Source: Thermococcus barossii
GTDB taxonomy: Archaea; Methanobacteriota_B; Thermococci; Thermococcales; Thermococcaceae
Direction: 5' to 3'
DNA length: 64,000 nt
NCBI RefSeq assembly: GCF_002214465.1
Contig: NZ_CP015101.1
Coordinates: forward strand, 112,502-176,501
Shown here: piece by piece, positions 1 to 46,177 of the stretch
Layout: every line of letters begins with the position of its first letter
Position numbering within the stretch: position 1 is the first letter of the stretch
Translations under genes and position numbers: made by a program
The notes under the pieces: model-generated
What the model was told of the DNA's origin: nothing
Databases searched by the model: none
What the model saw: the letters and a program-made list of their open reading frames with translations, nothing else

Positions 1-1110
1 GACATCTTTGCCTCTGTACTCCCCAAAAGTCCTCCCTACTACTTTACTGATTGTCTGCCAAGGTCCGGCACCTTTTCTTCGCCCTTCCCAGGGAGGGTAT
101 TTATGTACTAGGTCATCCACGGTATATTCTGGAACTAACAATCTGACTTTGTCGCACTTAAGTAGTTTTTTGGTTATTTCTATAGCTGCTTTGGGAAATA
201 TATTGCTGTTGTTCTTTATGTCCTTAGGGAAGACCATTGTCTTGACTAAATCTTCTGCAGCTTGAGTCAATTTAGAAGAATCTTTCGTTTTGAGATACTC
301 TAATGTGCTATCCGGGAAAGTTTTTTCACCAATTGCGATAAGGTATCCATCATACTTACAGAGAACATCGAGGAGCAACCCATAGTACTCGGACATTAAA
401 TCCCATATGACAAGTTTCACTGGTTCGTTGTCTATAGAGTACTCTGTGATCTTACGGATTAATGTGCTAAGCAGGTTGCTCTTTCCTGCACCTGTAAACC
501 CGAAGATACCAAAGTGCTTCCTTAAGAGTTCCTCAACGTTGATCCTGATTTTAACTTCATTTCCAATGGTCCAGGAACCAGCTTCTATGTACCCTTTATT
601 CATTCCTTTGTTAATTATCTCCTGAGTAGTTTCATTGTCCAGAATATAGACTTCTTTTCCGAGCATTGGAATGTTAGTTTCTTCTTGGAGTTCGTATTTA
701 TCACTCCCATCATCAACAATCTCCAAGTTAGTTGGGATAGCATCCACAATTATCCTTGTAGTAGGGTATTTCGGGGCATCTGTTTGGATCTCCCAGTCTA
801 TTGAGGCATTTTTAGCCGCAGTTTCTGCAAAATGTGGATAATGGCTCTTCGAGATATTGTGGATAGCATAGTGTAGGGGTTCAATGAATGTTACTTCTAA
901 GATACTCCAGTGTTCTTCGGCATCTTTTGTTGCAAAATTCTTTACAGCTAAAAATCTGCCTTCTCGGATTTCATTGATGTACTCAAGAGCATACGGGAAC
1001 CAGACCTCATAGGAATACCTAGTATTTTCACTAGGTTCAATCTTCATTAGAGTTCCAGAGACTTCTTTCCCATTAATTTTCAGGAACTCAAACTTTTCTA
1101 ACTTTGTCAT
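1..1110 (-). CDS. HerA-like ATPase, partial (C-terminus beyond left edge)
   Basis: Reading the minus strand from the ATG at 1110 gives 370 uninterrupted codons to the window edge. Residues 204-212 read GFTGAGKSN, a Walker A loop of the HerA/FtsK type, followed by a hydrophobic strand ending in VIWDLMSEY. The roughly 200 residues before it are predicted beta-rich, where HerA proteins carry a HAS-barrel domain, though I do not recognise that barrel clearly. HerA is a hexameric DNA translocase that partners NurA. The start ATG overlaps the stop of the upstream NurA gene as ATGA, so the two are probably translationally coupled. Walker B and the arginine finger lie outside the window. The DNA is AT-richer than the genome to its right. 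Family call firm, specific role inferred. Confidence 0.8.
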   Translation of the reverse strand, partial: MTKLEKFEFLKINGKEVSGTLMKIEPSENTRYSYEVWFPYALEYINEIREGRFLAVKNFATKDAEEHWSILEVTFIEPLHYAIHNISKSHYPHFAETAAKNASIDWEIQTDAPKYPTTRIIVDAIPTNLEIVDDGSDKYELQEETNIPMLGKEVYILDNETTQEIINKGMNKGYIEAGSWTIGNEVKIRINVEELLRKHFGIFGFTGAGKSNLLSTLIRKITEYSIDNEPVKLVIWDLMSEYYGLLLDVLCKYDGYLIAIGEKTFPDSTLEYLKTKDSSKLTQAAEDLVKTMVFPKDIKNNSNIFPKAAIEITKKLLKCDKVRLLVPEYTVDDLVHKYPPWEGRRKGAGPWQTISKVVGRTFGEYRGKDV

Positions 1111-3182
1111 GAGCCCCACCTCCTAATGTATTCACCCCTATCGCGGGTTTCCCTAAAAGAACTGTCTAAATAACTAAATTCCTCAAAGCGGGATGATGAG
1201 TGAATATAACGCCGAATAATATCCCCAAACTCCTTTGCTCCAATATCTGCCTCATGAAGAGGAACGGGATATCCTAGTGCTTCGGGATATGTATTTCTAA
1301 CCATGGACTGTAGAATAAAAATTGTCATTGCAGCATACCAATTACTCAATTCCCAGCTATTGAAGATCTTTGGCAATTCCTCTGGCCTGAAGGTGTCAGT
1401 TAAGTTAAAAGTTTCAAATGTGAAATATGCTTGAACGTGACCTAAGTTTTCATAATCATTGCATTTACTGCCTGTATTGCCTTTTGAAATTGCTTGGGAG
1501 GTTATGTCCATAATATTTATACTGCTCTCTGCTAATTCCTCAGGATATAGCAGTCTTTCAACAAAGATTGCATGCCAGATTAGGGGGTATTCAGGGTAGC
1601 TTTCTTTATCAACATAAAACATAATTATGGACTTTGCAAATAATAGATTCTGGTTTAATATTTCCCCTCGAACTCCTGTTAAGCATATTCTTCCCTTATC
1701 CTTAATATAATTGGCTCTCAGTGTACTAAACACACTATCAAATTCTATAGATCCAATTGGAGCTTTAGTTACGTCTGCTAGCTTTAGAATTAAACTTTCA
1801 ATTAGTTTTCTATCTGTGGGATGGCGAACTAATAGTTCTTCACTGACCTTTTGTGGAAGGTATGGCTTGCCGATATAGTTCATGACACTCATTGCGTTTC
1901 TGCTGAGATACCTACTGCTTGAATCTTTAACTACCCCAATTAACATGACTCTCTTGTCCCATGCCTTTTCTATTAATGATTTTATTCCAACTTCAAGAAG
2001 AAATAGAACATCATTGGGAGATAACCATGAAAATACGTCTAATTCTTGCCCTTCTGCTGTTGTATACTTCTTTCTGTACGTTAAGACCCCAATGTCCTGG
2101 TCTTTGAATAGTTTCTCGCAAAAACGTTCATAAAACCTCTTTGTCTCTTCCCAAAGTTGAGTATACCAATGAATTCTTTGTTTCCCCTTAGGCTCTTTCG
2201 ATTTGATATCCTTTCCTCCAATATACACTCCTTTGTCGTCCCATTCAAGCAAATTAGCAATCAACTTGCTTTGTCTTTTCAGATTTTTCTTAACAAGTTC
2301 TATATCAAGTTCTGAGTCTTTTTCTTTGAGCTCTTCCCACGAGACAAAGGTTCTATTGTCATCAAAGTAATATACAAGGTCAGCTATTAGCCTGGAAAAC
2401 AATCTAAATTTTGAGAGAGTTGGAATCTTCGTTTGATATTTGGTATAGTGCTCTTTAGGGTGCATAGGGTGTGCCCGGGTTATTGCGATGTGGGCAGGGG
2501 TTAGTTTAATGCCTAAGTCTATGTCCAGTTGACTATCAATTAATCCAATATCTTCCCATTTCACTTCTGAATGCATCAATAGGCTACTTAAAGAGTGATC
2601 AATAAGTATGACTTTTGCATAGCTTGTGGATTGATACGCTAGAAATATTTCGGCAAGTTTCATGAGTTCCAGATTTAGAGAGTTCATATCGATCCTTTCA
2701 CTATCCGATGAGACTAGGTATGCAATATCTCCTAGTTCTTCACCCACCAAACTCAACTCTGAGAAAGGTATCGGGACATAAGCGACGATACTTGTAGTTT
2801 CTCTTATTTCTTCGCCTGTTGAAAGTTGTGAATATGAAAATTCCACTGAGTCTCTGCTTATGCTTAAGTTTCCTTTGATGCCGTATGCAAGGCTATAAAA
2901 TATAACATACTCTTCTTTGCTTTCTTTTCCTGCAGAACCATCAATAGCTATCATTTGTGCGGAATTTCCGCCGAAGAAGTCCTTTAGATAAGTTAGTAAC
3001 CTCCTTCTTACCATCCGATTTTTAAAAAGAGTGTTGTAATTAACTAGGAGTTTTCTTAGCTCTTCTTGGTTTCTTTTAATGAACTCTTCTTGTTTCTCTC
3101 GTTTATCTTTGATTCTCTTTCTAGTTTCTGAAATTGCCTTGTTATAGTTCTCATATATTTTTGTGATCTCAGATGGAGCCAT
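1107..3182 (-). CDS. Large NurA-domain nuclease (691 aa)
   Basis: The protein has a basic, coiled N-terminus (1-70), then IAIDGSAG with Asp81, ILIDHS with Asp195, and GVVKDSSSRYL with Asp420. It ends with an ADIGAKEFGDIIRR segment like the C-terminal helix of NurA. These match the conserved acidic motifs of NurA, a 5'-3' exo/endonuclease that works with HerA in DNA end processing. Housekeeping NurA is about 400-450 residues, so roughly 200 extra residues lie between the motifs (about 200-400). It overlaps the DUF6884 gene upstream by 14 bp and the HerA gene downstream by 4 bp, and a GGAGGT site precedes the ATG. No mre11 or rad50 is beside it, unlike the usual archaeal herA-nurA locus. A defence-type or mobile-element NurA is the main alternative to a repair role. 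Confidence 0.78.
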   Translation of the reverse strand: MAPSEITKIYENYNKAISETRKRIKDKREKQEEFIKRNQEELRKLLVNYNTLFKNRMVRRRLLTYLKDFFGGNSAQMIAIDGSAGKESKEEYVIFYSLAYGIKGNLSISRDSVEFSYSQLSTGEEIRETTSIVAYVPIPFSELSLVGEELGDIAYLVSSDSERIDMNSLNLELMKLAEIFLAYQSTSYAKVILIDHSLSSLLMHSEVKWEDIGLIDSQLDIDLGIKLTPAHIAITRAHPMHPKEHYTKYQTKIPTLSKFRLFSRLIADLVYYFDDNRTFVSWEELKEKDSELDIELVKKNLKRQSKLIANLLEWDDKGVYIGGKDIKSKEPKGKQRIHWYTQLWEETKRFYERFCEKLFKDQDIGVLTYRKKYTTAEGQELDVFSWLSPNDVLFLLEVGIKSLIEKAWDKRVMLIGVVKDSSSRYLSRNAMSVMNYIGKPYLPQKVSEELLVRHPTDRKLIESLILKLADVTKAPIGSIEFDSVFSTLRANYIKDKGRICLTGVRGEILNQNLLFAKSIIMFYVDKESYPEYPLIWHAIFVERLLYPEELAESSINIMDITSQAISKGNTGSKCNDYENLGHVQAYFTFETFNLTDTFRPEELPKIFNSWELSNWYAAMTIFILQSMVRNTYPEALGYPVPLHEADIGAKEFGDIIRRYIHSSSRFEEFSYLDSSFRETRDRGEYIRRWGS

Positions 3183-3600
3183 TTTTAACCTCCTCCAGAA
3201 TCTTATCTAATTTCCCGATATCCCCCATATTCCCATACCCAAAACTAATCAAGCGCGTGCCAGTTTCTTCACAGGCCTTTTCAATTAGCTCCCGATACTC
3301 TTTTCTGGCCCCACCTTTGTAGAAAACAACTAAATCAAAGCTTTTGATGGTCTCTTTGACCGGAGACAGAAGTTCTGCTGCTCTTTCTGGTGTCATAACT
3401 TTGTCATATGGCTCTATAATCATGTCAGCATTGATAAGCCCATACTTTGCACTCAAGATGTAGAAGGGGATTCCAAGTTCTTTTGATTTTTTGTAGAGAT
3501 GGCGTATTCTAGAGGACTTGTAGAGTCTACCTGCGGGCTGTGGGGTTTCTTCCTTTTTGGCGCCACATGAAGTTACTAATGCCACCCTAATATTGTTCAC
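3169..3600 (-). CDS. DUF6884/YaaA-like small protein
   Basis: This 143-residue protein opens VALVTSCGAKK and has LYKSSRIRHLY near residues 26-36, LSAKYGLI near 49-56 and a YDKVMTPE segment. That arrangement is typical of the DUF6884 family, a relative of the YaaA-type proteins. The biochemical function is not established to my knowledge. It starts with GTG at 3600, with a TATA-like GTTTAAATA about 29 bp upstream, so the message is probably leaderless. It is the first gene of a three-gene minus-strand operon and overlaps the NurA gene by 14 bp, which suggests a shared job. Family assignment is from motif recall; the function is unknown. Confidence 0.65.
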   Translation of the reverse strand: MNNIRVALVTSCGAKKEETPQPAGRLYKSSRIRHLYKKSKELGIPFYILSAKYGLINADMIIEPYDKVMTPERAAELLSPVKETIKSFDLVVFYKGGARKEYRELIEKACEETGTRLISFGYGNMGDIGKLDKILEEVKNGSI

Positions 3601-3624
3601 CTGGGCATTTTAGAGGTTTAGTCC

Positions 3625-3633
3625 TATTTAAAC
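3625..3633 (-). promoter_or_regulatory. TATA box of the DUF6884-NurA-HerA operon
   Basis: GTTTAAATA on the minus strand is centred about 29 bp before the GTG at 3600, the spacing expected for a leaderless archaeal transcript. A second AT-rich match (AATTTAAATAC, about 3642-3652) lies further upstream. Confidence 0.5.
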
Positions 3634-3669
3634 CTTTTGCATAATTTAAATACAACTGTGGGTTAGTTT

Positions 3670-3690
3670 AAAGGGTTCCCGAAACCCTTT
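3670..3690. promoter_or_regulatory. Inverted repeat upstream of vapB, possible operator
   Basis: AAAGGGTT and AACCCTTT form a perfect 8-bp inverted repeat around a 5-base centre. The right arm runs into CTTTTATCC, a plausible TATA element for vapB at 3729. Ribbon-helix-helix antitoxins commonly repress their own promoters at such sites, so an operator is likely. A hairpin acting at RNA level cannot be excluded. Confidence 0.45.
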
Positions 3691-3728
3691 TATCCCTGCA
3701 ATACAAAGCGTATTTCGAGGTGTATTAC

Positions 3729-3950
3729 ATGGCCATCGTCACCGTCCGCGTCCCCGACGAGCTGAAGCTCAAGATGAAGGAGCTGAACATCAACTGGAGC
3801 GAGGAGATAAGGGAGTTCATAAGAAGGCGCATAGACGAGGAGGAGCGGAGACGAAAGATACGGGAAGCTCTGGAGCTTGCAAAAGCAAGCGGGAGCGTGA
3901 GCAGGGGCTTTGCAGCGAAGTCCGTGAGGGAGGACCGTGATAGTCGTTGA
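3729..3950 (+). CDS. vapB: VapB-type antitoxin
   Basis: A 73-residue protein starting MAIVTVRVPDEL, with an N-terminal strand and two charged helices. This is the ribbon-helix-helix layout of archaeal VapB antitoxins, with a basic C-terminal tail that would wrap the toxin. The ATG at 3729 follows GAGGTG with six bases between; a GTG at 3720 in the same frame is less well placed. It overlaps the PIN toxin gene by 14 bp. It probably binds the inverted repeat at 3670-3690 with the toxin as co-repressor. GC-rich codon use here contrasts with the AT-rich block just to the left. Confidence 0.85.
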   Translation: MAIVTVRVPDELKLKMKELNINWSEEIREFIRRRIDEEERRRKIREALELAKASGSVSRGFAAKSVREDRDSR

Positions 3951-4329
3951 TGCTTCAGCCCTTGTAAAGGTCGTCCTTCAGGAGCCCGGCTGGGAAAAGG
4001 TTCCAGTGGAGCCCAGCGTGGCGACCCTCGACTACGCGCTCGTCGAAGGCATGAACGCCATCTGGAAGGCGGTGCGGCGAAAAGAATTGACCTTGGAACA
4101 GGGAAAGATCAAGATAACCGTGCTCAAGACATTGGGGAGTTCATTAACCCTCTTCGAGGCCGGGAACTTCTTTGAGCGCGGCCTTGAGATAGCGCTGAAA
4201 GAAAACATAACCATCTACGATGCCCTCTACATAGCCCTCGCTGAAGCCCTCAACGCTGAGTTCCACACCGCCGACGAGAGGCAGTACCATGCGGCTCAAA
4301 ATTATGTAAGGGCAAAGCTGGTCAGGTAG
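3937..4329 (+). CDS. vapC: VapC-type PIN-domain toxin ribonuclease
   Basis: This 130-residue PIN protein has the acidic set expected of a metal-dependent VapC ribonuclease. Asp5 lies in MIVVDASALVK, Glu37 in ALVEGMN, Asp95 in TIYDALYIA and Asp113 in HTADERQ. The GTG start at 3937 lies inside the end of vapB, so the two are probably co-translated. All active-site residues appear intact. Its 3' end overlaps the convergent HAD gene by 8 bp. VapC toxins usually cleave tRNA or rRNA; the target here cannot be read from sequence. Confidence 0.88.
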   Translation: MIVVDASALVKVVLQEPGWEKVPVEPSVATLDYALVEGMNAIWKAVRRKELTLEQGKIKITVLKTLGSSLTLFEAGNFFERGLEIALKENITIYDALYIALAEALNAEFHTADERQYHAAQNYVRAKLVR

Positions 4330-5029
4330 CTTTTCCTTTCTCTAACTCCTCCAAAACCTCCAGAATTCCCTCAACGCCCGGCACTTCAAAGCCCCTCTCG
4401 TGGATCTTTCTAACTTCCTCTGCCTCCGGGTTTATCCAGACGGCCCAGAGGCCGGCCTTTAGAGCGCCTTCAAAGTCCTCCGCGTAGGTGTCTCCGATGT
4501 GGATTGAATCTTCAGGCTTCACGCCAAAGGCATGGAGCGGCTTCCTGAACATTTCGGGCATCGGTTTGAAAGCCCTCACCTCGTCGGCGAAGAAGGTTCC
4601 CTCAATGTAGTCCATCAGGCCGAACCTCTCGAGTAGGAGCCTCGTGTAGGAGCCGGGCCAGAACATCACGTTGCCCGTTACCGTGATTTTAAGTCCCTTT
4701 CTTTTAACGACTTCAAGGGTTTCCTTTGCACCTGGGATGACGATCTCATCGCCAACGTTCAGAGTCGCCCTCGCGGCGGCCCTCTTAACCACCTCGACGT
4801 CTGTTCCCAGAAGTTCAGCCAGCATCTCCTGGCTCTCCTCCAAGGCCCTCTCCGGGCTCCCCTCGGTTCTGGCGCGCATGCGCTTTATTCTCTCGCGCGT
4901 GAGCATCATGCCCTCCACAACGTCGACTATGCAAACTCCCATCAGCCTGGAGAGCTCAACGGCCATGACGTCGAGCATCACGTTGATGTCGAGGAGGGTG
5001 TTCCAGACGTCGAATGAAACGAGTTTCAT
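4322..5029 (-). CDS. HAD-superfamily hydrolase
   Basis: The protein begins MKLVSFDVWNTLLD, so the nucleophile is Asp7. VTGNVMFW follows as motif II, then KPMPEMF with the motif III lysine, and IHIGDTYAEDFEGA with the motif IV acids. The residue two after the nucleophile is Trp, not the Asp of typical HAD phosphatases, as in haloacid-dehalogenase-type members. The ATG at 5029 has GAGGGTG six bases upstream; longer starts would run into the neighbouring gene. It is the last gene of a minus-strand operon behind the TOPRIM protein, with about 40 bp between them. Substrate unknown. Confidence 0.82.
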   Translation of the reverse strand: MKLVSFDVWNTLLDINVMLDVMAVELSRLMGVCIVDVVEGMMLTRERIKRMRARTEGSPERALEESQEMLAELLGTDVEVVKRAAARATLNVGDEIVIPGAKETLEVVKRKGLKITVTGNVMFWPGSYTRLLLERFGLMDYIEGTFFADEVRAFKPMPEMFRKPLHAFGVKPEDSIHIGDTYAEDFEGALKAGLWAVWINPEAEEVRKIHERGFEVPGVEGILEVLEELEKGKAT

Positions 5030-5069
5030 ATCCATCACCCTCTTCGGTTTGAGCACAGGGGATAAAAAT

Positions 5070-6107
5070 TCAACGCCTTCTCTCTTCCTCTCTCCCTGCA
5101 AGATAGATGAGCCCATTCATGAGTCCTGCCTCTCTGAGAACCGCTTTGAGGTTTCTGAAGCGCGAGCGCATGATGAAGAGCTCGTAGAAGCCCTCCAGGT
5201 TGCCCCAGTGGCCGTATGCTGAGAGGGCCAGATACATGACTTCCTTGGGTTTGAGCCTTCTCCCGAGGCTCTCGTTAAGGGCTCTGAGTGCAGGCTTTAT
5301 CCTCTCCAGCAGGCCTTCCCTCGCGATCATGTGGAGCATAAGGTCTTCCACGGTGGGTTTCTTCCATTCTATGACCTCGTCTTCGAAAGGAAGGCCGATT
5401 ATGAGGGGGACAACTTCAGTCCCCCCAACCCGATAGCCGAGGGGTGTTTTTTCATGCCTGAACCCGGATAGCTTCCCCGCTATCGAAGCCATCGCCGCCT
5501 CCCTGTCCTCGTCAACGTCTATTGCCACGCCTATCTTTTCAACGGTGAAGCCAAAAACGTCCATCGCCCTGAGGAAGTTCCCAAGGTTCCTTATCACCCC
5601 GGAGTTGCCCTCGCTGGGGATTATGGCAAGATAGTGTCCGTCCTCCTCCCGCCGAAGGAGGTCGAAGTTGTCACGCTCGAAGACCCGCTCGATGAACCTC
5701 AGGCTGTATGGTGCCTCTCTGCTCTCCTTGAACTCAAAAAGCTTTTTGAAGACCGCCTTGAAGAACTTGGCGTCGGTCTTGCCCTCGACGAACAGAACGC
5801 TTGTCTCTGCCCTCTCTCCCTCAAAGCCGCCGCGGACGTCAAAATCGAGGTACTTCCTCAGCTCGTAGACCTCCTTGAGGGTGAGGGACTTCCCGGTGTC
5901 AGAGTATACCAGAACGTTCTCTTCGCCCCGTCTGAACTTCCAGGCTATTAAGTCTATCAGTTCGAGGCTCGCGGTGACGACGGTTTCATCTCCGGTCAGG
6001 GAATCCACGAAATCAAGGAGCTCATCGCGATTCTTTCTGTACTCCGGGAATAGAAGGGCCTTCTCGTCGGCGAATGCCTCGAACCGGTCTCCGGTTATTA
6101 TCCTCAT
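5070..6107 (-). CDS. TOPRIM-domain protein of unknown function (DUF3226-like)
   Basis: This 345-residue protein contains VLFVEGKTDAKFF with Glu108 and GVAIDVDEDREAA with Asp197 and Asp199. These are the E...DxD signature of a TOPRIM fold. SEGNSGVIRNLGNFL between them resembles DUF3226/OLD-type TOPRIM proteins. Metal-dependent nucleic-acid cleavage or nucleotidyl transfer is possible but unproven. It is immediately downstream of the DUF2391-like membrane gene (TGA directly followed by ATG) and upstream of the HAD gene, so all three are likely one transcript. N-terminal 100 residues have no fold I recognise. Confidence 0.6.
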   Translation of the reverse strand: MRIITGDRFEAFADEKALLFPEYRKNRDELLDFVDSLTGDETVVTASLELIDLIAWKFRRGEENVLVYSDTGKSLTLKEVYELRKYLDFDVRGGFEGERAETSVLFVEGKTDAKFFKAVFKKLFEFKESREAPYSLRFIERVFERDNFDLLRREEDGHYLAIIPSEGNSGVIRNLGNFLRAMDVFGFTVEKIGVAIDVDEDREAAMASIAGKLSGFRHEKTPLGYRVGGTEVVPLIIGLPFEDEVIEWKKPTVEDLMLHMIAREGLLERIKPALRALNESLGRRLKPKEVMYLALSAYGHWGNLEGFYELFIMRSRFRNLKAVLREAGLMNGLIYLAGREEERRR

Positions 6108-6647
6108 TCACTTCACCATGTCCACCGTTATAGCCCCTATCACCGCGAAGGTGCTTATAAGTATGGTCGCGTTGATGTATTGGCCCGGGGTGAAGTCGGC
6201 CAGGCCGTTTATCCCGTACACGTATATCAGAACCGCCGATATCATGTAGGCTATCACCGTGACGGTTAGGAGTCTCTTGGGGATGTGGAAAAGCTCCTCC
6301 TTCTTCAGGTTTCCTATCCTGGACTTGGCTATGAAGAGGTAAGCCACACCAAGCGTCATCAGGAGTATCGCCAGCGAGCGCTCAACGGATATGTCCTTGG
6401 CAACTTCCCACAGCTCGCCGGTGAAGAGGAATGGGAGGGCGAAGGTAACTGCACCGACTATTTCCTGGGCTATGTCGTCCCAGCCAAGTTTATCAGGGGC
6501 TTTTCTGCTCTCGTTCTCCCTTTTTAGCTCCTCGATGCTGGAGTACAGTTCTTCAAGTCGTTTCTCCATTTCAGTTCGCCTTTCGTTTTCTATCCCGTGC
6601 TCAGGTTCGGGGTTCATCATCCGGTCAGCATTGGATTCACTCATCAT
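6108..6647 (-). CDS. Putative DUF2391-like integral membrane protein
   Basis: From the ATG at 6647 the product is 179 residues: a charged N-terminus with a short coiled coil (about 25-50), then four hydrophobic segments between about 65 and the C-terminus. Spacing of the segments recalls DUF2391 membrane proteins, a tentative match. GGTTATAAAG lies about 29 bp upstream, suggesting a leaderless message, and no good ribosome binding site precedes the ATG. The TATA box is shared head-to-head with the S-layer-type gene. First gene of the operon with the TOPRIM and HAD proteins. Function unknown. Confidence 0.6.
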   Translation of the reverse strand: MMSESNADRMMNPEPEHGIENERRTEMEKRLEELYSSIEELKRENESRKAPDKLGWDDIAQEIVGAVTFALPFLFTGELWEVAKDISVERSLAILLMTLGVAYLFIAKSRIGNLKKEELFHIPKRLLTVTVIAYMISAVLIYVYGINGLADFTPGQYINATILISTFAVIGAITVDMVK

Positions 6648-6670
6648 CGCAGAAGTAACTTCCGGGGAAA

Positions 6671-6680
6671 GGTTATAAAG
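6671..6680. promoter_or_regulatory. Shared divergent TATA box
   Basis: GGTTATAAAG reads as a TATA box on both strands. It lies about 29 bp before the minus-strand gene start (6647) and about 36 bp before the plus-strand start (6712), which also has GGTGAT at 6701-6706. One element may therefore serve both directions. Confidence 0.5.
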
Positions 6681-6711
6681 GTTGAGATGCACTTTAAATC
6701 GGTGATAAACG

Positions 6712-8181
6712 ATGAAAAGGGCTTTGGTTCTGTTTATGGGCCTGGTGGTTCTGGGCCTGCTCCTTACGCCTATTAATGCAGCGATTACGGAAATCAATTC
6801 CTCGAACACAGTGATAGTCCTTCCGACCACCAAGATAGTCAACGGTGTGCCGCTTCACATAGGTGAGGACGCGATAACCGGTTCGAGGCTCGGTGCCTTT
6901 CTGGTTCTCCAGGGTGTTTCCCAGGGAACGTATACGAAAACCGTTTCTGTGCCGGTTGAGTACCACAGCGTGCTCATTCACGATGAGAACCAGACGTACA
7001 AGCTCAACTCCGTTGACATGCCTGACGTTGGCGTTAACGTCAGCGATGAGCCGGTTGGGCACGGGATAGTCGTTCAGGTAAACTTCTCACGGATTGAGTT
7101 CAACTCCACCAAGAAGGCCGCCGAGTTCGGGGACAGGAGTGTCGAGATAATCTTTAACGAGAACACCACCCCCCTCAATATCGGCGGGGACTACAAGGTC
7201 ATCTCGACGACAGTGGATGGGAAGGACACCATGTACTTCTACGCCTACACGGAAGTGGAATCAACCACGAGCTCCCTGGGGGAGAGCATAACAGTTGGAA
7301 GGTGGACCCTGAAGTTCGTGGACATTAACATCAACCAGGAGGAGATGCTGGTTGACCTGACGTATCCCAGCGGCATAATCAAGCAGAAGACCATGGACAA
7401 GGGCAACTACTACATCATGTACGTTGATTCTGACGGAAACGAGGACTTTGAGTGGTTTGATACATACCCATCCTCCAGGATAAACGAACTCCTCGAAAGG
7501 GGTGTCAAAGAGCTCTTCGTGTTCACCCCGACGGATTTCTTCGTGGGGATAAACAACGCCCAGATGGTCACCTACGACTACTGGCACTACGAAAAGGTCA
7601 GGCAGTATCAGGACGGCGATGTGTACAAAGGCCAGTGGGTATGGGATATAGACCCCAACAGAAACCTCTACGTCCTCTACCTCCATGTCAATGAGAGCCT
7701 CACCGGCTTTAAGCCGGTCTTCATTGGAGAAGGCTCCGCCCTGAAACTGCCCACGGAGTGGGGGCTTGAGATAGAGCCTGTGTTTGTGAAAAACAATGAG
7801 GGTGAGATAACAGGCATCGAGGGCTACCGCTTCGTACGCGTTGCGTCCGTGACCAAGAAGGTCTCCATAACCGCGCCGAAGATAGAGGCTACCGACGACG
7901 TCTATGAGTTCATAGTCGAGGACACCCAGCTCAAGAACCTGCCGGCCGACAAAAATGTTATAATCGTCGGCGGCTGGGTCAGCAACAAAGCATGGGCGCT
8001 GCTTGAGCAGGTTTACGGCAAGGACACCATCAATGCAATCAAGGATGAAATAAACCAGAAGGGCTACGTGATAAAGGAGCTCAATAACCCGCACAACCCG
8101 AGCTACAAAGTGATAATCCTTGCAGGAAAGACCTATGAGGAGACCAGGCTAGCCGTGGAGAAGTTCATGGAGGAAATGTAA
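6712..8181 (+). CDS. S-layer-family surface protein
   Basis: A 489-residue exported protein. Residues 1-24 are a signal peptide (MKRALVLFMGLVVLGLLL then a small-residue cleavage region). The mature part is rich in Ser/Thr/Asn with several N-glycosylation sequons such as NSS, NQT, NVS and NFS. The C-terminal 100 residues (VIIVGGWVSNKAWALLE to AGKTYEETRLAVEKFM) match the C-terminal domain shared by methanococcal and thermococcal S-layer proteins. It is shorter than many main S-layer subunits, so it may be an accessory paralogue. Preceded by a TATA box and GGTGAT; a T-rich tract follows. Confidence 0.75.
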   Translation: MKRALVLFMGLVVLGLLLTPINAAITEINSSNTVIVLPTTKIVNGVPLHIGEDAITGSRLGAFLVLQGVSQGTYTKTVSVPVEYHSVLIHDENQTYKLNSVDMPDVGVNVSDEPVGHGIVVQVNFSRIEFNSTKKAAEFGDRSVEIIFNENTTPLNIGGDYKVISTTVDGKDTMYFYAYTEVESTTSSLGESITVGRWTLKFVDININQEEMLVDLTYPSGIIKQKTMDKGNYYIMYVDSDGNEDFEWFDTYPSSRINELLERGVKELFVFTPTDFFVGINNAQMVTYDYWHYEKVRQYQDGDVYKGQWVWDIDPNRNLYVLYLHVNESLTGFKPVFIGEGSALKLPTEWGLEIEPVFVKNNEGEITGIEGYRFVRVASVTKKVSITAPKIEATDDVYEFIVEDTQLKNLPADKNVIIVGGWVSNKAWALLEQVYGKDTINAIKDEINQKGYVIKELNNPHNPSYKVIILAGKTYEETRLAVEKFMEEM

Positions 8182-11785: not shown

Positions 11786-14700
11786 CTACCTCTTTCCTCT
11801 CGCTGCCAGCGGCACGAGCAGGAGGAGCAGTAAGAGACCCATCCCGCATATCCCTCCTTCCTGTCCCCCAGGTGAGGTGGGGGAAACTGGCTCTGTTTCC
11901 CCTGTGGGGCTCTCAGCTGGAGGGCCTTCTTCCTCTTTTTCAGCGGTCACTGTTATCTTCTTCGTCGTTTCCGACGTCAGCCCTGTTGAATCCGTGACCT
12001 TCAGCCTGACGGTGTAGGTCCCCTCACTCCGATAGCAATGGGTGGGGTTCCTCTCTCTGGACACGTAACCGTCCCCGAAATCCCACTCCCACGAGACTAT
12101 CTCCCCATCGGGATCGAGGGAAGTGTCCTTGAACTGGATTTCCATACCCACCTCGGGGGTCTCGGGGGAGTAGTGGAAATCCGCTTTGGGGGATGTGCTG
12201 AAGGAGAAACTTGCTGTGGCCGGTTCGCTCATGGTCCCGTCGTAGAGGACGTAACCTGTAACCTCTGCACCGGACTTCCCGGCGCGGAAGGTTTCCTCGA
12301 AGGTTGTCTCCTCCCCGGGCTCCAGAGTCACGTTCATGATCACCTCTTTTGTTCCGGAGGAGAGATGGACTTCACCCGTTACCGGGAGGTCTCCGGTGTT
12401 GATGACCCTCAAAACCGCCGTGAAGGCAGCTCCCGGAGAGGGTTCCTGTGGAATGGTGAGGATGTTTTCAACGCGTTTAACTCCCAGCAGGAAGTGAAGG
12501 AGTTTTCTGTCGAGAACGTTTCCGTTTACATCTCTGGCGAGGATCTCTATCCCGTACTGTCCGCCGGTTAATCCCTTCGTCTGGAACTCAAAGGAGAAGT
12601 ATCCGGTGCCGGTTAGATTTCCGAGGCTGAGAAGTTTGGCTTCAGAAACGGTGGCTCCATACGTCCCTTTCCTGAGAACTGCACTCAGAATAACATCGGT
12701 ACTGCCTTCAGAGTTCGTTATGACTCCCGCTACCCTCACACGCTCTCCGGGTTTGTATACATCCCTCTCAAGCCTCGCACCCGCGATTTCGACACCCGTT
12801 TCTATGTACTCAATTGTGAATCGATGGCGGCCGTACAGCACGGCCCTCTTGGTGAGGTTGTTGTACTCCAGAGGGAACACCCTTATGAAGAGCGTACTGC
12901 TTCCGTCGGGGTTCTCACTCACGCGCCACTGGTAAGGTGGAAGCGGTGTGGCCTCCTCGGTCCCGCTTCCGACCTCTTCGCCGAGCTTTCCTACCCTAAA
13001 GGGAACCATTGTGATGCTGAGCACTTCTTTAGCCTCTCTCTCCACGAGTTCAACGTTTTGAACGCGCCTCCCCCTCGGAATCTTCACACTGTAGGTGTAA
13101 TACGGGATTGGTGACCTTCCCGGTAGGAGGAGAATGCCTCCCTCTTCGAGTTCCACGAGTGAACCCTCACCGGTTTCCTGAATGCTGTACGCGGGCGTCT
13201 CCAGTTCCAGGCTCTCTGGGGCCCCCTCGTTCTCTCCTTCCGGTGTGCCGGCTCCAAGCCCAAACTTGGGGTCGCCGTAGAGATGCATTGACATGACCCA
13301 CAGAAGGTCGGTGTCGTCTTCGATTTCCCAAACCCTGCCTATCCCCATGTCCCGCTTAAGCTCTTTGAAGGCGTCACCGATGGGGGTTCCCAGTTCCCAG
13401 CGCCTGTAGAGCCTCTTTGCCCTCGCAGTCCACGGGGCAGAATACGTTTCTTCCGTTGACCCGAGATACACAACCGCCCCCGCTTGAAGGAAGGCCTCTG
13501 CTACGCTCACTCCTTTTGTGTAGTCCCCTGTGAGACAGGATTCAGCGTAGGCAAAGGGGCACGCACTTCCGAAGGGGTTCCTCCTGTTGATCACGTCTGT
13601 CACTGAGATGTCGTCGATGACATTGGTGTTTCCATGGCCCTCAAGGTGTATTATGTCCTTTTCGGGAGTGTTGTTGAAGAACGCCTCCACGGCCAGCCTC
13701 TTTCCGTTGACCACTATCCTGTCCCCTTCCTTTACATCCCGGTAGTCCGTGGTAAAAACGATTGTTACCAGGGTACCCTGCCCCTCCAGTGCCCTCTTCA
13801 CGGCTCTGCTCCTCTCTGCAAAATCATTGTCGCTGCAACCCCCGCTTCTGCATTTGGGCCAGCCAGATAGTATTAACGCGTGGGAGCGGTCAAATGAGCA
13901 CTCCCCCCTCGCGGCCTTTATTGCATTTCTTATGGCCACCTCAAGCTTATCCGCCGTGTCTCCAACTATCCTCCCGATGATGAGCTCCGGATCTAGAACG
14001 TCTCCTTCCGTATTCGCGTAGGGCAGATCCGTCACCCTGACGTGCTTTACAGCGCCCCAGTCCAGCCACAGCGGCTCAAAGCTCATTTTCTGTGCCGGAA
14101 CAACTTCGGTCTCCCCTACTATGAGGAGGTATCCATCAGAAAGCCAGCCCTCTTTCATTCTCGTGCCCCAGCGCTCGATGAGCGTCGTGGAGAGGGGTGA
14201 AGGACCTTCGGCGACTTCGCGCCAGGTGGTAAACTCAAAGTTCTCTCCATGGACTACAGCGATCTCATCGCTCTGTCCTCCCACGATATCCACGAGCATC
14301 GCCTTTCCAGAGTAAAAGAACCTGCGTGTTTCCCTTAGTCCAGCGGTGTCGTACACTTCAACGGTACCAAGCTCCTTTTTGAAGACCAAGAGCTCCCCAA
14401 CGCCATCCCCGTCCACGTCTCCCCAATCTACGTCATCCCCCTTTCTGTATGATGTCTGAACGCTTCTTAGGAGGTTTGCGTTCTGCACCCCCATGAGGTC
14501 GTAGAATTCGAGGGTTCCATCGGGTCTCAGTATAATCACCTCATCGGAGTTCTCCGGATGGGAGTTGCCGATGAATATGAGGCTGTCCTTTGGAACATCC
14601 AGGCTGATGCTCCTCCACTCCGGCGTAGTGTCTGTCTCTGAATAGCGGAACCACACCAACCTATCCTGGGCTTGGTAGAGGCAGCTTGGGTACCGGGATT

Positions 14701-17700
14701 GTTCAAGAACGTCCATATGGAGAAAACCACAGGCGAGTCTTCCCCCGATGAAGTGCGGAACCCGAAACTCAAACTCCTTTATATATTCCTCGCGGGGATT
14801 TCCCCGTCCATCCGTAACGACTTCTCTACCGTAGATCATTACCGTCATGTTGTCGAACACTAAAACGACTTCGTCCTTGCCGTCCCCGTCAAAGTCCACC
14901 AGGCTCATTGCCTTTGCACTGCCGATTCCCTCAAAGGCGTGCCTGAACCTCTGAACCGGTTCGTGGATCCAGAGGCCTGAAGATGAGCTGTACGTGACCA
15001 CTTCTTTCGTCCCATCACCGTCAGTGTCGCCACCCGATACAAGCTCGGGATTCCCCACCCGCATTCTGATGGAGCTGAAGGAATCCACGTATCCTATAAC
15101 CCCGTTCCTGTACACGGCAAGCTCGGCGATGGCCGACAGGAGATTGTTAACACTCTCATCGTCGTTCAGTGTGTAGAGGTTCGTGGGGTCGGTAACTATC
15201 AGGTAGTCACTTTCCTTGATTGCCCTCTCCCAGGCTTCGCTTATATCTTCCCTCTTCCAGGTTCCTCCATCCAAGGTCATGACCCCATAACCCTGGTAAA
15301 ATCTTTTTACGGTTGAATAAGTCTCGACGGTTATCCCACCGTAGGCTGCACTCACGTATATTGGATGTGGATACATAACGGGAACCGCAGGATAGCTCAC
15401 TTCGAAGTGCTCTCCCGGCTGAAGGACCACGGAATCGAAGGTGAAGTAAATGGTATTGACTCCAGTGGCGGGGTCAAAGACGGTCTTCATGTTGTAGCTT
15501 TCGCCGTCCCTCTCAACGGCCTGGAATCCTATGAGGCGCTGGGTTATCTCCATCAATCCAAAGGGCACGTCTCCGGTGTTGAGAACCCTTAGGGTGACGT
15601 TGAGGTAATTCCCACGGCGCACTATTCTTGTCTCCAGAGAGTAATCCTCCTCCCTGGGCTGAACTTCCACGGTGATGGCCCTTGAGTAGTGAAATCCCCC
15701 GTCCGTTGAATTGGCAATTGCCGTGATGAGGTACAACCCAACGGGCAGACCGCTCATGTCCCAGGTGTAAGTGTATGTGAGTTCGTCATCGCTTCTCGGC
15801 CTGAACGTGCGGGAGATGTGATAGTTCTGAGGCCCCCAGATATGAAGTGTGACCATTCCGATGGCGTGGGGAACAATCTCCCCCGGATTGTGCATGCATG
15901 CAAGCTCTCCCAGCTCCGAACTTGGGCAATCCCTCATCCTCAGCTCGTACTCTGCCGCGTATATCTCAACCTCAACAAGGGTTCCGGGAGCGACTCCGTT
16001 CCTTCCTGCTTTCACTGAGTACCTGTCCTGGGGCGAGATTATTTCCACGTCAACACTGTGGACCTCATATTCTGGCCTCCAGAGTTCTGAACCTATCCCG
16101 CAGACGCCGGTCATGTCACAGACCCTTACCGTTATCTCATGGTCGCGGTAAAGGCCGGGACCGCTCATTCCCAAAGCTGAGGGACTAAACGCTACGCTGG
16201 CCGAATCCTGGGGGTTGTACACAGTCCCTACGAGCATTCCATCGACGTAGAACTCCACCCTTGAGATTCCGCTTTCGTCCCTTACTGGAATTCTAATCTC
16301 GTAGTAGTCTCCCGAACCTCTTATGGAGAGCTCCCCCAACATTGGCTTTTTTCCGTCGGCCACTTTTTCAGTTTCAAAAAACCTCTCCCTGTCCCTCATT
16401 ACGTTTCCGCTCTCATCGATGGCCGTAATGACAAATCTGTAAAGGGTTGAGGGCTTCAGTGACCCTATTCGGATAGAATGCTCCCGGGAGAATTCTTCAG
16501 TCTTGAAGGTTCCCTCAAAGCTTAGGGCGTCTCTTCCATACTTTACCTCGACCCTTGACGGTTCATCCGTTAGTATGCTGAGCTCTACGTGCTCCGTCCC
16601 GACGTCCTCAACGGTGACGTTCAGTATCTTCGGCGGCTTCTCGTCGCACTTAAAGGTCTCCACCCTGAAGTTGTTGCTCTCGTTGAATTCAGGAATAGAA
16701 TCCCCTTCGTCTGCGATTATTTCCACTTGGAACGCTTTCCAGGGGCATTCAGACAGTTCAAAGCTGCCATCAATCCTTTCACCGCTTCCAAGTCCTTTGA
16801 GAACTGTAGACTCTACGGCTTCTCCGTTTATCAGCAGGGTGACCGTGAACTCCTCGGAGAACTTTTCTTTGGCGTTCATGACCTGAAATCCTATCTCATT
16901 TCCTTTTTTCCATATGTCGGTGATCAGGAGGTCCGCCCTTTTTTCTGGGGCTGGAAGAACCAGTGGAAGCCAGTCCCCGTTTCTTACATTTCCACCTGAG
17001 GTGTGGGGTAGCTGGGTGTCTCCTATCCAGTCGCCGTTTGTATCCTTCCCGTCGTAGTCGCTCCAGTAGTTGCCGCCTATGTAGGGACCCCCAATGATAT
17101 TTTTTCCCGGTTTCTTTGTGGTGTTCCAGTGGTTGTTTCCGACGTCTATCGCGTTTTGTTCGTTGGAGAGGTAGTTGTTGTAGAACAGGTTTCCCCTCGT
17201 ATCGGCGGAGTATATACCCAGACTGTTGTTTGCTATCACGTTGCTCCTGATGGTGTTTTCATTTCCAAAGACGGATACACCCCTCTCGTTCAGCGTTAGG
17301 GTGTTGTTTTCAATCACGTTCCCCTCGCTGGATTGAATGGTAATGCCGTCTTCGGCACTTTCTTCAATCCTGTTTCCGGCTATTATGTTGGCATCTGACG
17401 ACCCTTTGAGAAAAATTCCCGAATATAGGGGTTCGACTATTGTATTGTTGATAATAGTGCTCTTAACGGTGGAGCTGAGGTATATGCCCCTCTCAGGTCT
17501 CAGGATTTCGTTGAAGGAAATCTCTGCCTGGAGGTTTCCGTATGCCATAACAGGGACTGAAACGTTCTCAAAGCGGTTCCGGGAGATGACATGGCCCGCG
17601 CCTTTTTGTGCCAGGTAAATCCCACCGTAGCTCGAAATTATCAGGGTTTCGAGAATACTGCACCCCTCTGTGTTGCTGTCTATTACGATGGAATACATTC

Positions 17701-42706: not shown

Positions 42707-45700
42707 TCAGAGCACGCGGTAGAAGCCCGCGCGCGGCTCGTATATCCTCGCGTCCCTCTTAAGGTCGTTGAGGAGCTTCTTTATCTCGTTCTCCGAGCCG
42801 AGGCCGGCCTGCTTCGCGGCCTCGATTATCCTGTCCTCCGGGGCTCCAAACTCTCCCTCGCTCTCCAGGCTCTTTATGATGTCCACCATCCTGTCGATCT
42901 TGTTTATCTTCTTGGAGCTCTTGCCGACCTCCAGTATGGAGACGTCCAGCGTTCCCTCCTCGTCAACGGCTATCTTCCTTATCATGTCCTCGATTATCGC
43001 TATCGCAGCTTTAGCATCTTCCCTCGTGACCGTCTCGCTGAGGCGCATCCTTGCGTGGGCCTCGCTGAGCCTTATCAGGGCCTCCAACTGCCTTGCGGTT
43101 ATTGGAATCGGCTGCACGCCGTCCTCCTCGCCCGGGCGCTTGAAGCCCTTCCTCATCCTGACGTAGTAGCGCTTTATCTCCTCCATCGCTTCCCTGCTCA
43201 GCACGGGATGGACGTTCTTCCTGGCGTAGGCTATGTACTTCTTGAGCAGGTCGTAGGGTATCTTGGGCGTTACGGCCTCGGCCTCCCCGCGGCGGACCTT
43301 GAGGATGTGCTCCGCTATGCTCGCGTCGACCTTCTCGTCGGGCTCGTCGAGGAGCAGGAAGATAAGGTCGAAACGGCTGAGCAGGGTCGGTGGAAGGTCG
43401 AGCTGCTCGGGTAGGGACTTATGGCGATTGAAGCGGCCGTACTTTGGATTTGCGGCCGCTATGACGGTTGTCCTCGCGTTCAGGGTGGCGGTGATTCCGG
43501 CTTTGGAGATGCTTATTGTCTGCTGCTCTAGTGCCTCGTGTATCGCGCTCCTGTCGCGGTCGCTCATCTTGTCGAACTCGTCAATTAGGGCAAATCCGCC
43601 ATCTGCCAGAACGAGAACACCCGCTTCGAGAACCCAAGACCCCGTGAACTCGTCCCGGACTGCTGCGGCCGTAAGGCCCGCTGCCGAACTACTCTTCCCA
43701 CTCGTGTAGATTGCCCTTGGAGCGAGGTTGGCGACATAACGGAGGATCTGGCTGTTGTGGACGAAGATGTCGTTGGCTATGAAGTTGTGGTGCTCGGGAA
43801 CCTGGAGATCATAAACCCAGGGATGCTCTGGGTTGTACTCTTCGATTTCAACGACCCTGTCCCAGAAGATGTCCGAGCTGGCTAAGAGTTCAAGAACTTT
43901 TAACTCTTCGGACTCCGATAAGCGTCGTTTAAGGGCTTCTATTACTATTTTGAGCTTCTCTCTGCTGGGCAGTCTATCACCGCGCTCGTAGTGCATATAA
44001 GTTGAGCGGTTAATTCCCATCTGTTTCTGGGTCAATCCTGCCTCACTCCGAAGCTTCCTCAGAAGCTTGCCAACTCCGGGAACAATGTCCACGTTGGTGT
44101 TTGGCTTTATGCCCTGGGTAACCTGTTCAAGAATTTTGTGTTTCCTCGACACTTCTAACCCAATGAGTTCCTTAAATCTCACGGCATCTTCTCCAGTAAT
44201 GAATAGGCGGTAATACTTTCTGGCGGTTTTCATTCTCCCGTTTGTTGCACGGGATCTGGTTTCGTGGAGCTGGGATTTTATGCCAAACCTGAGGAGCAGA
44301 TGCTGAACGCCTTTAAGAAGCTCTTCTGAGGCAGAAACAACGGTGATCTTTGGTCTTTTTCGGTCCACTGTGGCTTCGGCGTCGAAGTGTCCTCTAAGGA
44401 ACGCTCTAACATCCTCCAGTCTTGCTCCGAACAGCTGGGGGGGTACTTTTTTCTCTGATGAATTCTGTGCGATACCGAGCCACTTCATGAGTTGGTAGAG
44501 TTCTATTCCGCTCGCATAGACTTCCTTGGCGGTTTTTCCTTTGTGAGAATCTCTAATGGTTGGATTTAATCCGAGCTTTTTGAAGTACTCGTAGACCTTT
44601 TCGATAAGCCTGTCGTCGTTGTTCGTGAAATACACAGTTGCACTACTTCCTCTTTTCTGGGTGTACCCCTCTCCTGTCAGGAGCCCAATCACGTACCAGA
44701 ACTCCTCATCGGCAAACTCTGGAAGCTTTAATCTGCTCTTTGCAGTTTTGGGCTTTTCAATGGGTACCTCTGAAAGCTTTACGGGCCTACCATCAACTGG
44801 AATAGTCCTTGGGACCGCAATGAAATAGCCTTCTTTAAGCTCCGCTGCCCTTCTCGTCCTGAACTGCCCGTCCTCGAAGGTGAAAAACGGATGGGTGGGT
44901 GTTGCCCTTATCTCCCTTCCACTTGCCGTCCTTATGCGGTACATCTTCCTAGGGGCAGTTCTCTTCCAGGCGATGTTGGCTCTAACCTTTCTGACCTTCA
45001 GTGTTTTAGCGTCGAGAGCGTACAGCTCAAGGTCTATTGGAGCGTAGAAGCCGTCATCCACTTTTCCGAGCGTGCCCATTGAGTTAGCCTTCTCGACGGC
45101 CTCCTCGACTACATCTCCAATCTCCCTCAGGCTCCCATCAGCGAGTATAACCTTTGTGTGGTAGTCCACACATTTTGCAACACCAGGATCTCCGACCAGC
45201 AGAACGTGGCTCTCCCCCCTTAGCTTCGTCCCGTCCGGCAGGGTTCTCTGCACGCCGCCGAAGAGAGCGAGCGCTATGCCCTTCTTGACGGTCTTGTGCC
45301 CCCATATTGCAGGTGCTATTGAGTCAACTATCGCATCGACGATGTCCTTTCTCTTTGCCAGCTCCCGTATCTTCTGCTCGTCCTCCGGTGAGATCTCAAG
45401 CTCCTCTATCTCCTTGCTGAGCTGTTCGATGTGGTTTACCTCCAGAACCTTCTTGAATATCGGCCTCTTGTCCTTCTGCTCAAGGATGACGCGCAGGATT
45501 CCGGTGACGAGAACCCTGTCGCCCGGCAGGGCCGTGTCCACGAGGTCATCGAGCAGGATCGCATCGACGAAGCGCGGCATCTGGCCTCCTTTAAGGCTCT
45601 CGGGTCTGTCCTGAAGGCGGAAGCTCTGGAAGTTGATAAACCTGCTCTTCTCGACGTCGAGGTCAACGTTTCTGGAGCCGCAGGCGTCACACTTGCTCGG

Positions 45701-46177
45701 CTTGACTATGTTCTCGTAGGGTCTCTGGAGGCGAACCATCTCGTTGCCGCAGTCCTTGCAGACGAATACAGCCTTCTCAACGAAGGGCTTCACCTCGCTC
45801 ACGCGCGTGATTATACCCTCAACCTGAATGAGCCTGTTTATGTGCTCGCTCCCCAGTTCTTTGACCAGAAGGGTTCTGGGAAGGTTGTAAAACCTCGCGT
45901 GAACTTTGAACTCTTCCTCCTTGAGGAGGGGCGGCTCTCGCAGGACTATCTGAATGGCATCCTCCGCCGCCAGAATACTCTCCTCAGGGTTCTCAAGGAG
46001 CTCCGCCGCCAGCTCGGGGTCAAAGGAGTTGAGGTGCGTCCAGTCTATAGCCAGCGAGCGCTTTGGGGTGACCGTGAGAAGGTCTTTGAGCTTGTTCAGG
46101 TATACCTCGTTCCCGCTGTCGTCCACGTACTCCCTCAGAAAGCGCGCATACCTCTCTATCATATCCTCCCTGTCCAT
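42707..46177 (-). CDS. mcm: MCM replicative helicase with one intein
   Basis: The 1,156-residue precursor of the MCM helicase. The N-terminal part (1-270) has a zinc ribbon (Cys140/143 and Cys163/166) and the OB fold. The ATPase has [10 protein letters not shown], interrupted by the intein (residues 336-808), and resumes [20 protein letters not shown]. Further features are [10 protein letters not shown] (Walker B) and [17 protein letters not shown]-terminal winged helix ends the protein. Splicing would leave 683 residues, the normal length. The start overlaps the Gins23 stop (TGATG), an arrangement shared with other archaea. Confidence 0.94.
43754..45172 (-). mobile_element. MCM intein with homing endonuclease and HTH segment
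   Basis: The 473-residue insertion starts with Cys336 after GDPGVAK and ends with His-Asn before Ser809. Block B is TPTHPFF (427-432) and block G is [10 protein letters not shown]. Two LAGLIDADG-like motifs are [10 protein letters not shown] (Glu503) and [10 protein letters not shown] (Asp599), both with catalytic acids, so the endonuclease may be active. An XRE-like helix-turn-helix ([30 protein letters not shown], 710-739 in parts) lies between the endonuclease and block F. Position in the Walker A loop matches known Thermococcales CDC21/MCM inteins. Confidence 0.92.

Follow-up and report, generated by a model that had tools for sequence, protein, structure and literature searches.

What are three tightly packed genes at the left edge of a 64,000-nucleotide stretch of the Thermococcus barossii genome for? 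The stretch (hereafter the window) is G000 C1:112502-176501 of the complete 1.92-Mb genome, and its bases 1-3600 are occupied by three minus-strand genes encoding a DUF6884 protein, a long NurA-like nuclease and a HerA-type translocase that is truncated at the window edge. A first-pass annotation of the window had taken these for a specialised, non-housekeeping HerA-NurA system with the DUF6884 protein as an accessory or effector. Following the same genome leftwards (L003), as that annotation had advised, completed HerA (622 aa) and revealed a fourth gene of the operon, encoding a DpdA-like transglycosylase. We propose, with a probability of about 0.62, that the four genes constitute a single Dpd-like cassette for 7-deazaguanine DNA modification and restriction, with HerA-NurA as its exchangeable motor-nuclease. 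The evidence is that of sequence, namely the operon, the island in which it lies, the co-occurrence of its genes, the swap of NurA-HerA and the conserved catalytic residues; from here we infer that DNA is the target, that the mark denotes self and that HerA-NurA reads the mark.

The four co-directional genes lie on the minus strand in the order DUF6884, NurA-like, HerA and DpdA-like. The first encodes the DUF6884/DpdC-like protein (143 aa; window 3169..3600), the second the NurA-like nuclease (691 aa; window 1107..3182), the third HerA (window 1..1119 for its first 373 aa; in full L003:13753-15621, C1:111752-113620) and the last, wholly left of the window, the DpdA/TGT-like protein (329 aa; L003:12740-13729, C1:110739-111728). 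The DUF6884 and NurA-like genes overlap by 14 bp and the NurA-like and HerA genes by 4 bp, if HerA starts at an internal ATG, or by 13 bp from an upstream GTG. A gap of 23 bp separates HerA from the DpdA-like gene, which terminates 4 bp short of the end of the convergent, intein-bearing polB. The region assigned to the promoter, from its sequence and its conservation in a related genome (G063), is at window 3601..3677 on the minus strand, inside the island; it contains the box TTTAAATA approximately 30 bp ahead of the GTG start, and this box is kept in G063. The overlaps, the DUF6884 gene as first cistron, the 691-residue length of the NurA-like protein and the promoter box had all been described at first pass, and all are borne out by the sequence and by Pfam. 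Inteins are present in DNA polymerase B (L003:9229-12735) and also in the MCM helicase (window 42707-46177).

The operon fills an AT-rich island of 5.45 kb between polB and vapB (L003:12733-18179), which begins 1769 bases left of the window and stops at window base 3677, so that its window part is 1..3677. The GC contents of dpdA, herA, nurA and the DUF6884 gene are 0.37, 0.40, 0.37 and 0.43, against 0.54-0.55 for the flanking rsmB, polB and vapBC and 0.551 +/- 0.031 for the rest of the window in 1-kb blocks. In three relatives the site is empty, with polB followed directly by vapB, and when the flanks of the island are aligned to one genome, G070, they abut with 0 bp between them. To judge by its sequence, the cassette is a rare, horizontally acquired island that was cleanly inserted. 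The VapB-VapC toxin-antitoxin pair adjoining the island (window 3720-4329) is also found beside polB in the empty-site genomes and therefore belongs to the chromosomal site, not to the cassette.

The DpdA-like protein is most similar to the DpdA profile of PADLOC (E=2e-10), with the Pfam TGT domain matching below threshold (1e-3). A tblastn search against plasmids matched it to four transglycosylase genes of cyanobacteria/Paenibacillus, of which two carry the annotation dpdA, and its best relative in the PDB is the solved DpdA 7ui4, a weak match (E=0.02). Homologues in G063 and G070 are 92% and 60% identical. Alignment with annotated DpdAs and with the archaeosine-pathway tRNA enzyme (arcTGT) of the same genome shows that D79, D111 and D230 are kept, these comprising the (S/V)DSG aspartate, the one that recognises the base and the one that occupies the nucleophile position, and that GVAQG and IAIGGL are kept too. 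The arcTGT itself is a separate gene (C1:682040). As QueC (C1:1371184) and an ArcS-type DUF5591 gene (C1:1541837) are also encoded elsewhere in the genome, preQ0 should be available.

The DUF6884 protein matches Pfam PF21818 (E=3.4e-14), PADLOC PDC-M57A (E=1.4e-12) and, weakly, DpdC (E=1.4e-5 over 63 residues), and it contains the motifs CxxxK and LSAxxG. Its AlphaFold model has a predicted local distance difference test score (pLDDT) of 80. In Foldseek the model matched DUF6884 proteins of viruses (E=4e-8 to 2e-6) and, less strongly, the DUF5591 domain of Vibrio phage nt-1 (E=3e-3), a phage shown to have 7-deazaguanines (PMC6884629); a comparison with the PDB yielded nothing specific. In GATOR-GC, DUF6884 is listed as a dpdC domain (PMC11888242), and Pfam relates the family to YaaA, a member having been modelled flipping a base (PMC11701544). 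In the DpdA proteins of Nostoc and Paenibacillus a DUF6884 domain is fused ahead of the TGT domain (E=8e-11 and 1e-11). In two metagenome-assembled genomes (MAGs) of the phylum, G094 and G096, a DUF6884 gene comes directly after a queD-queE-folE2-queC operon (L109:5392-8262, L120:1460-4381), where it is a candidate enzyme for conversion of preQ0 in tRNA or DNA. On the viral contig IMG/VR 3300004369_000181 the order is DpdA2-like, queC, DUF6884, queD, queE and folE2-like (L131:4605-8206), and this virus probably modifies its own DNA with 7-deazaguanine.

The NurA-like protein falls into the NurA nuclease family by its Pfam domain, the aspartate of motif I and the adjoining HerA. This aspartate, D81 (in AIDGS), corresponds in the alignment to D49 of the genome's own housekeeping NurA, a residue that is essential in T. 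kodakarensis (PMC12977600). The remaining acidic motifs, which the first-pass annotation had also counted as present, align less clearly, with DHSL for DGTL and HEAD for QRAH. A full-length homologue, 28-34% identical, adjoins HerA in the MAG JAMNZA01. Of the 94 Thermococcaceae genomes 1 encodes the NurA-like protein, and of the 115 genomes of the phylum 2 do; a genome-wide contig scan with poor peptide patterns returned one relative only. No match was found when viral contigs were scanned for the NurA, HerA and DpdA of the cassette, or when plasmids were scanned for its NurA and HerA. HerA matches Pfam DUF87 (E=8e-15 for the part in the window, E=8e-18 for the full protein) and solved HerA chains (E down to 2e-18), with the PADLOC model HerA 'Type III coevolved' nearest to the full protein (E=4e-81). 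Its Walker A (GFTGAGKS, recognised already at first pass), DEAD Walker B, sensor Q and arginine finger place it in the HerA family.

Could this simply be the housekeeping pair? We rejected this, given that the housekeeping herA (C1:1,434,428) and nurA (C1:1,439,841) are separate from the cassette, that the NurA-like protein is so rarely present, and that the genes lie on an AT-rich island with empty sites. The same rarity disposes of the notion that the trio serves as housekeeping genes in all Thermococcales, and, as noted at first pass, rad50 and mre11 are not at the locus. A link to CRISPR was rejected as well, there being no direct repeats of at least 22 bp in window 1-8000 or L003:5000-19001.

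A comparison with G063 separates the cassette into two halves. The site and gene order are the same and the DUF6884 proteins are 90% identical, as against 92% for DpdA, but the inner pair is different: its HerA is unrelated (24-25% identical), and where NurA would stand there is a protein of 587 aa. The NurA label of the latter is tentative, being given for its place before HerA and its length, with a sub-threshold Pfam match (E=0.055). At the DNA level, scored in blocks of 100 columns, most of dpdA is 87-100% identical, with some blocks at 98-100%, and part of the region running from vapB to the DUF6884 start is 83-92% identical, while between these outer genes identity falls to 37% overall, which is background. 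Chromosomal genes nearby have diverged further than DpdA (78% for HAD, 70% for VapC), so that the outer genes probably passed from one species to another, with replacement of the inner pair. The association of DUF6884 with DpdA, its 90% identity despite the replacement of NurA-HerA, its fusion to bacterial DpdA and its place in preQ0 operons together put it with the modification half. An effector role for DUF6884, which the first-pass annotation had offered as one of two possibilities, was rejected as the leading idea because it is kept when NurA-HerA is replaced and is fused to DpdA in bacteria; we assign NurA-HerA as the predicted effector half instead.

Is the combination peculiar to this locus? 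We searched 115 genomes, 94 of them Thermococcaceae, with a DpdA profile and for DUF6884. An accessory DpdA, besides the ubiquitous arcTGT, is present in six Thermococcaceae genomes (T. barossii, G063, G070, G020, G075 and G047), and in all six cassettes DUF6884 adjoins it or lies at most 4.1 kb away. Since DUF6884 is present in only 18 of the 94 genomes, this adjacency is far beyond chance, although the six are not fully independent by descent. A HerA-NurA pair is found in five of the six. Those of G020, G075 and G047 comprise HerA, NurA (Pfam E=1e-10 in G020 and 2e-9 in G075), a STAND/AAA ATPase of 1451-1583 aa, an ArcS-core DUF5591 protein with the motif PC-x3-KPF, DpdA and DUF6884. The DpdA of these three has a zinc site, and that of G020 matches both TGT (E=3e-24) and DpdA (E=2e-19). 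The cassette of G070 instead consists of DpdA, DUF6884, a 458-aa protein and an 1805-aa helicase, the C-terminal 1158 aa of which match Druantia DruE (E=6e-85), with MZB and PLD domains. The cassettes of G047 (L108/L129) and G070 (L079/L083) differ, and yet both follow rpsJ and tRNA-Ser(GGA) and precede the same oxidoreductase gene. We read this as a second exchange site and a hotspot for defence cassettes that can replace one another. A short DpdA-like fragment with two stop codons in G024 (C1:1041047-1041226; L017) is possibly the relic of a lost cassette. The proposal of a specialised HerA-NurA system with DUF6884 thus holds up as a rare, acquired accessory module that recurs in other genomes, without the effector role for DUF6884.

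How might such a cassette work? DpdA would replace guanine in DNA by preQ0, or by a compound derived from it, drawn from the archaeosine pathway of the host. DUF6884 would be its partner in handling the base and would either take hold of the target nucleotide and flip it or convert the nitrile of preQ0. The HerA hexamer with the long NurA would form an ATP-driven nuclease that pumps double-stranded DNA and destroys what is unmarked, and the approximately 250 extra residues of NurA (691 aa against 436 aa in the housekeeping protein) are, as a conjecture, the likeliest place for sensing the mark. We give an even chance to a wider proposal, that these cassettes form an archaeal immune family in which a fixed marking pair of DpdA and DUF6884, the latter a preQ0-handling enzyme or a base-flipping subunit of the transglycosylase, is combined with interchangeable modules for destroying DNA. 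These would include two or more NurA-HerA pairs that are unrelated to each other, a version in which HerA-NurA is joined by STAND and an ArcS-type enzyme, and a Druantia-E-like helicase carrying PLD. The ArcS-type enzyme may make deoxyarchaeosine.

Among the closest described systems is the bacterial Dpd system, which places 7-deazapurine in DNA (Thiaville 2016 and Yuan 2018, summarised in PMC11888242 and PMC12839542). The TGT-family DpdA, a DUF6884 partner that may be of the DpdC type, the genomic island and the restriction genes alongside are common to both. However, DpdB is missing among the four genes, as are the restriction genes DpdD-K, for which reason we call the cassette Dpd-like and do not file it as Dpd. 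Its restriction half is HerA-NurA, its DUF6884 is a separate short protein, and it is archaeal, whereas the GATOR-GC survey of dpdAB lists only eight bacterial phyla (PMC11888242). BREX-Related Capture (BRC; PMC12839542) also joins a HerA/FtsK translocase to a TGT gene, and the large STAND/AAA ATPase of the G020-type cassettes is reminiscent of it. BRC is, however, built on PglZ, DUF6079, DUF4007 and GNAT and is reported without a DpdC homologue (PMC12839542); of its set of PglZ, DUF6079, STAND NTPase, DUF4007 and HerA only HerA is among our four genes, which have NurA and DUF6884 in addition. BRIGADE (PMC12458937) is archaeal and unites 7-deazaguanine genes with a restriction half. The G070 cassette, with its YprA/DruE-like helicase and PLD, resembles it, but reports of BRIGADE are confined to halophilic archaea, and it generally contains two YprA helicases and no HerA-NurA (PMC12458937); the T. 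barossii cassette contains no YprA-family helicase and that of G070 contains one. The CRISPR-associated nurA-csm6-herA genes of Pyrobaculum (PMC3396285) are likewise an accessory HerA-NurA pair in a defence setting, though no CRISPR or cas gene was found at our locus, where the partners are DpdA and DUF6884. Finally, the housekeeping HerA-NurA of Thermococcus (PMC12977600) shares the motor-nuclease pairing and the aligned catalytic aspartate, and differs from the cassette pair in its locus, in the length of NurA and in that the cassette NurA is nearly absent from the family. These systems share parts, but in the literature searched, which several key Dpd papers lie outside, none is described with DpdA, DUF6884 and HerA-NurA together.

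Several observations weigh against our reading. Profile scans limited to the four genes of the cassette found no DpdB ATPase. The NurA label depends on one weak Pfam match (E=5e-5, at 23.4 bits barely above the cut-off of 21), one well-aligned aspartate and the place beside HerA, and the AlphaFold model, built from two sequences, has a pLDDT of 29.6. The related NurA-HerA of JAMNZA01 lies on an 8.8-kb contig without DpdA, so such a pair can exist without it. The known HerA-NurA degrades DNA from ends with no specificity for sequence or mark (PMC12977600), and a sensing step is therefore required to spare self DNA. Lastly, the zinc site CxCxxC...H, present in the DpdA of G020, G075 and G047, is absent from those of T. 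barossii, G063 and G070, and the nucleophile motif of the T. barossii protein is ADYKGW as against FDSxS, so its activity or substrate may differ.

This divergence of DpdA leads to a first alternative, that the transglycosylase modifies protein or RNA, not DNA, and that HerA-NurA is armed or regulated by conjugation. There is a precedent in Cap10 of the type IV cyclic oligonucleotide-based antiphage signalling system (CBASS), a TGT-family enzyme remodelled for a protein N-terminus, which conjugates a 7-deazapurine to protein (PMC11996544). We think it unlikely here, as the closest profiles are those of DpdA and not of tRNA TGT, the DUF6884 partner is fused to DNA-type DpdA in bacteria, and neither a cyclase nor a Cap9-like gene is among the cassette genes.

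The mark might also sit on the invader, with HerA-NurA acting as a type-IV-like restriction enzyme or a general end degrader and DpdA-DUF6884 serving in competition, baiting or a like role. Modified invader DNA does exist, since archaeal viruses encode DpdA (PMC6884629) and viruses carry DpdA and DUF6884 with queC, and the lack of mark specificity in the known HerA-NurA would fit. That DpdA and DUF6884 share the operon of the nuclease and persist through its swap is, on the other hand, how host modification genes behave in restriction-modification loci, and we regard marking of the invader as improbable.

A specialised module for DNA repair or recombination is less probable still. HerA-NurA is classically tied to end processing, and the DUF6884 member YfjM of B. 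subtilis is among the binders of DNA lesions (PMC11701544), but the sporadic distribution, the AT-rich island with its empty sites, the presence of a housekeeping HerA-NurA elsewhere and the replacement of the pair by a Druantia-E-like helicase in a sister cassette all tell against such a role. A decayed or chance neighbourhood with no joint function, to which a degraded DUF6884 copy with fragments of an AGOG-like DNA glycosylase at the polB site of G069 (L117:9804-11347) might point, is very improbable in view of four intact frames that overlap or lie 23 bp apart and an association that recurs in six genomes with several effector types.

Elsewhere, the window encodes a predicted surface protein of 1970 aa with NosD/beta-helix, CARDB, C25 (gingipain-type) peptidase and PKD domains (11786-17698) and the C/D-box small RNA sR46 (Rfam RF01130; 6599-6651, minus strand).

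If our proposal of a Dpd-like cassette is correct, DNA hypermodification-restriction would reach into the hyperthermophilic archaea, and it would do so in Thermococcus, which is genetically tractable and in which preQ0 is already made for tRNA. The T. kodakarensis HerA-NurA pumps and degrades double-stranded DNA in an ATP-driven manner, for which an antiviral use has been suggested by the authors (PMC12977600); accessory HerA-NurA, with its debated role, would gain a partner able to tell self from non-self. DUF6884, a family of unknown function, would acquire a role in 7-deazaguanine chemistry that can be tested. The exchange of the nuclease half that nature has made at one site in two genomes would then be a ready-made experiment on which of the halves reads the mark.

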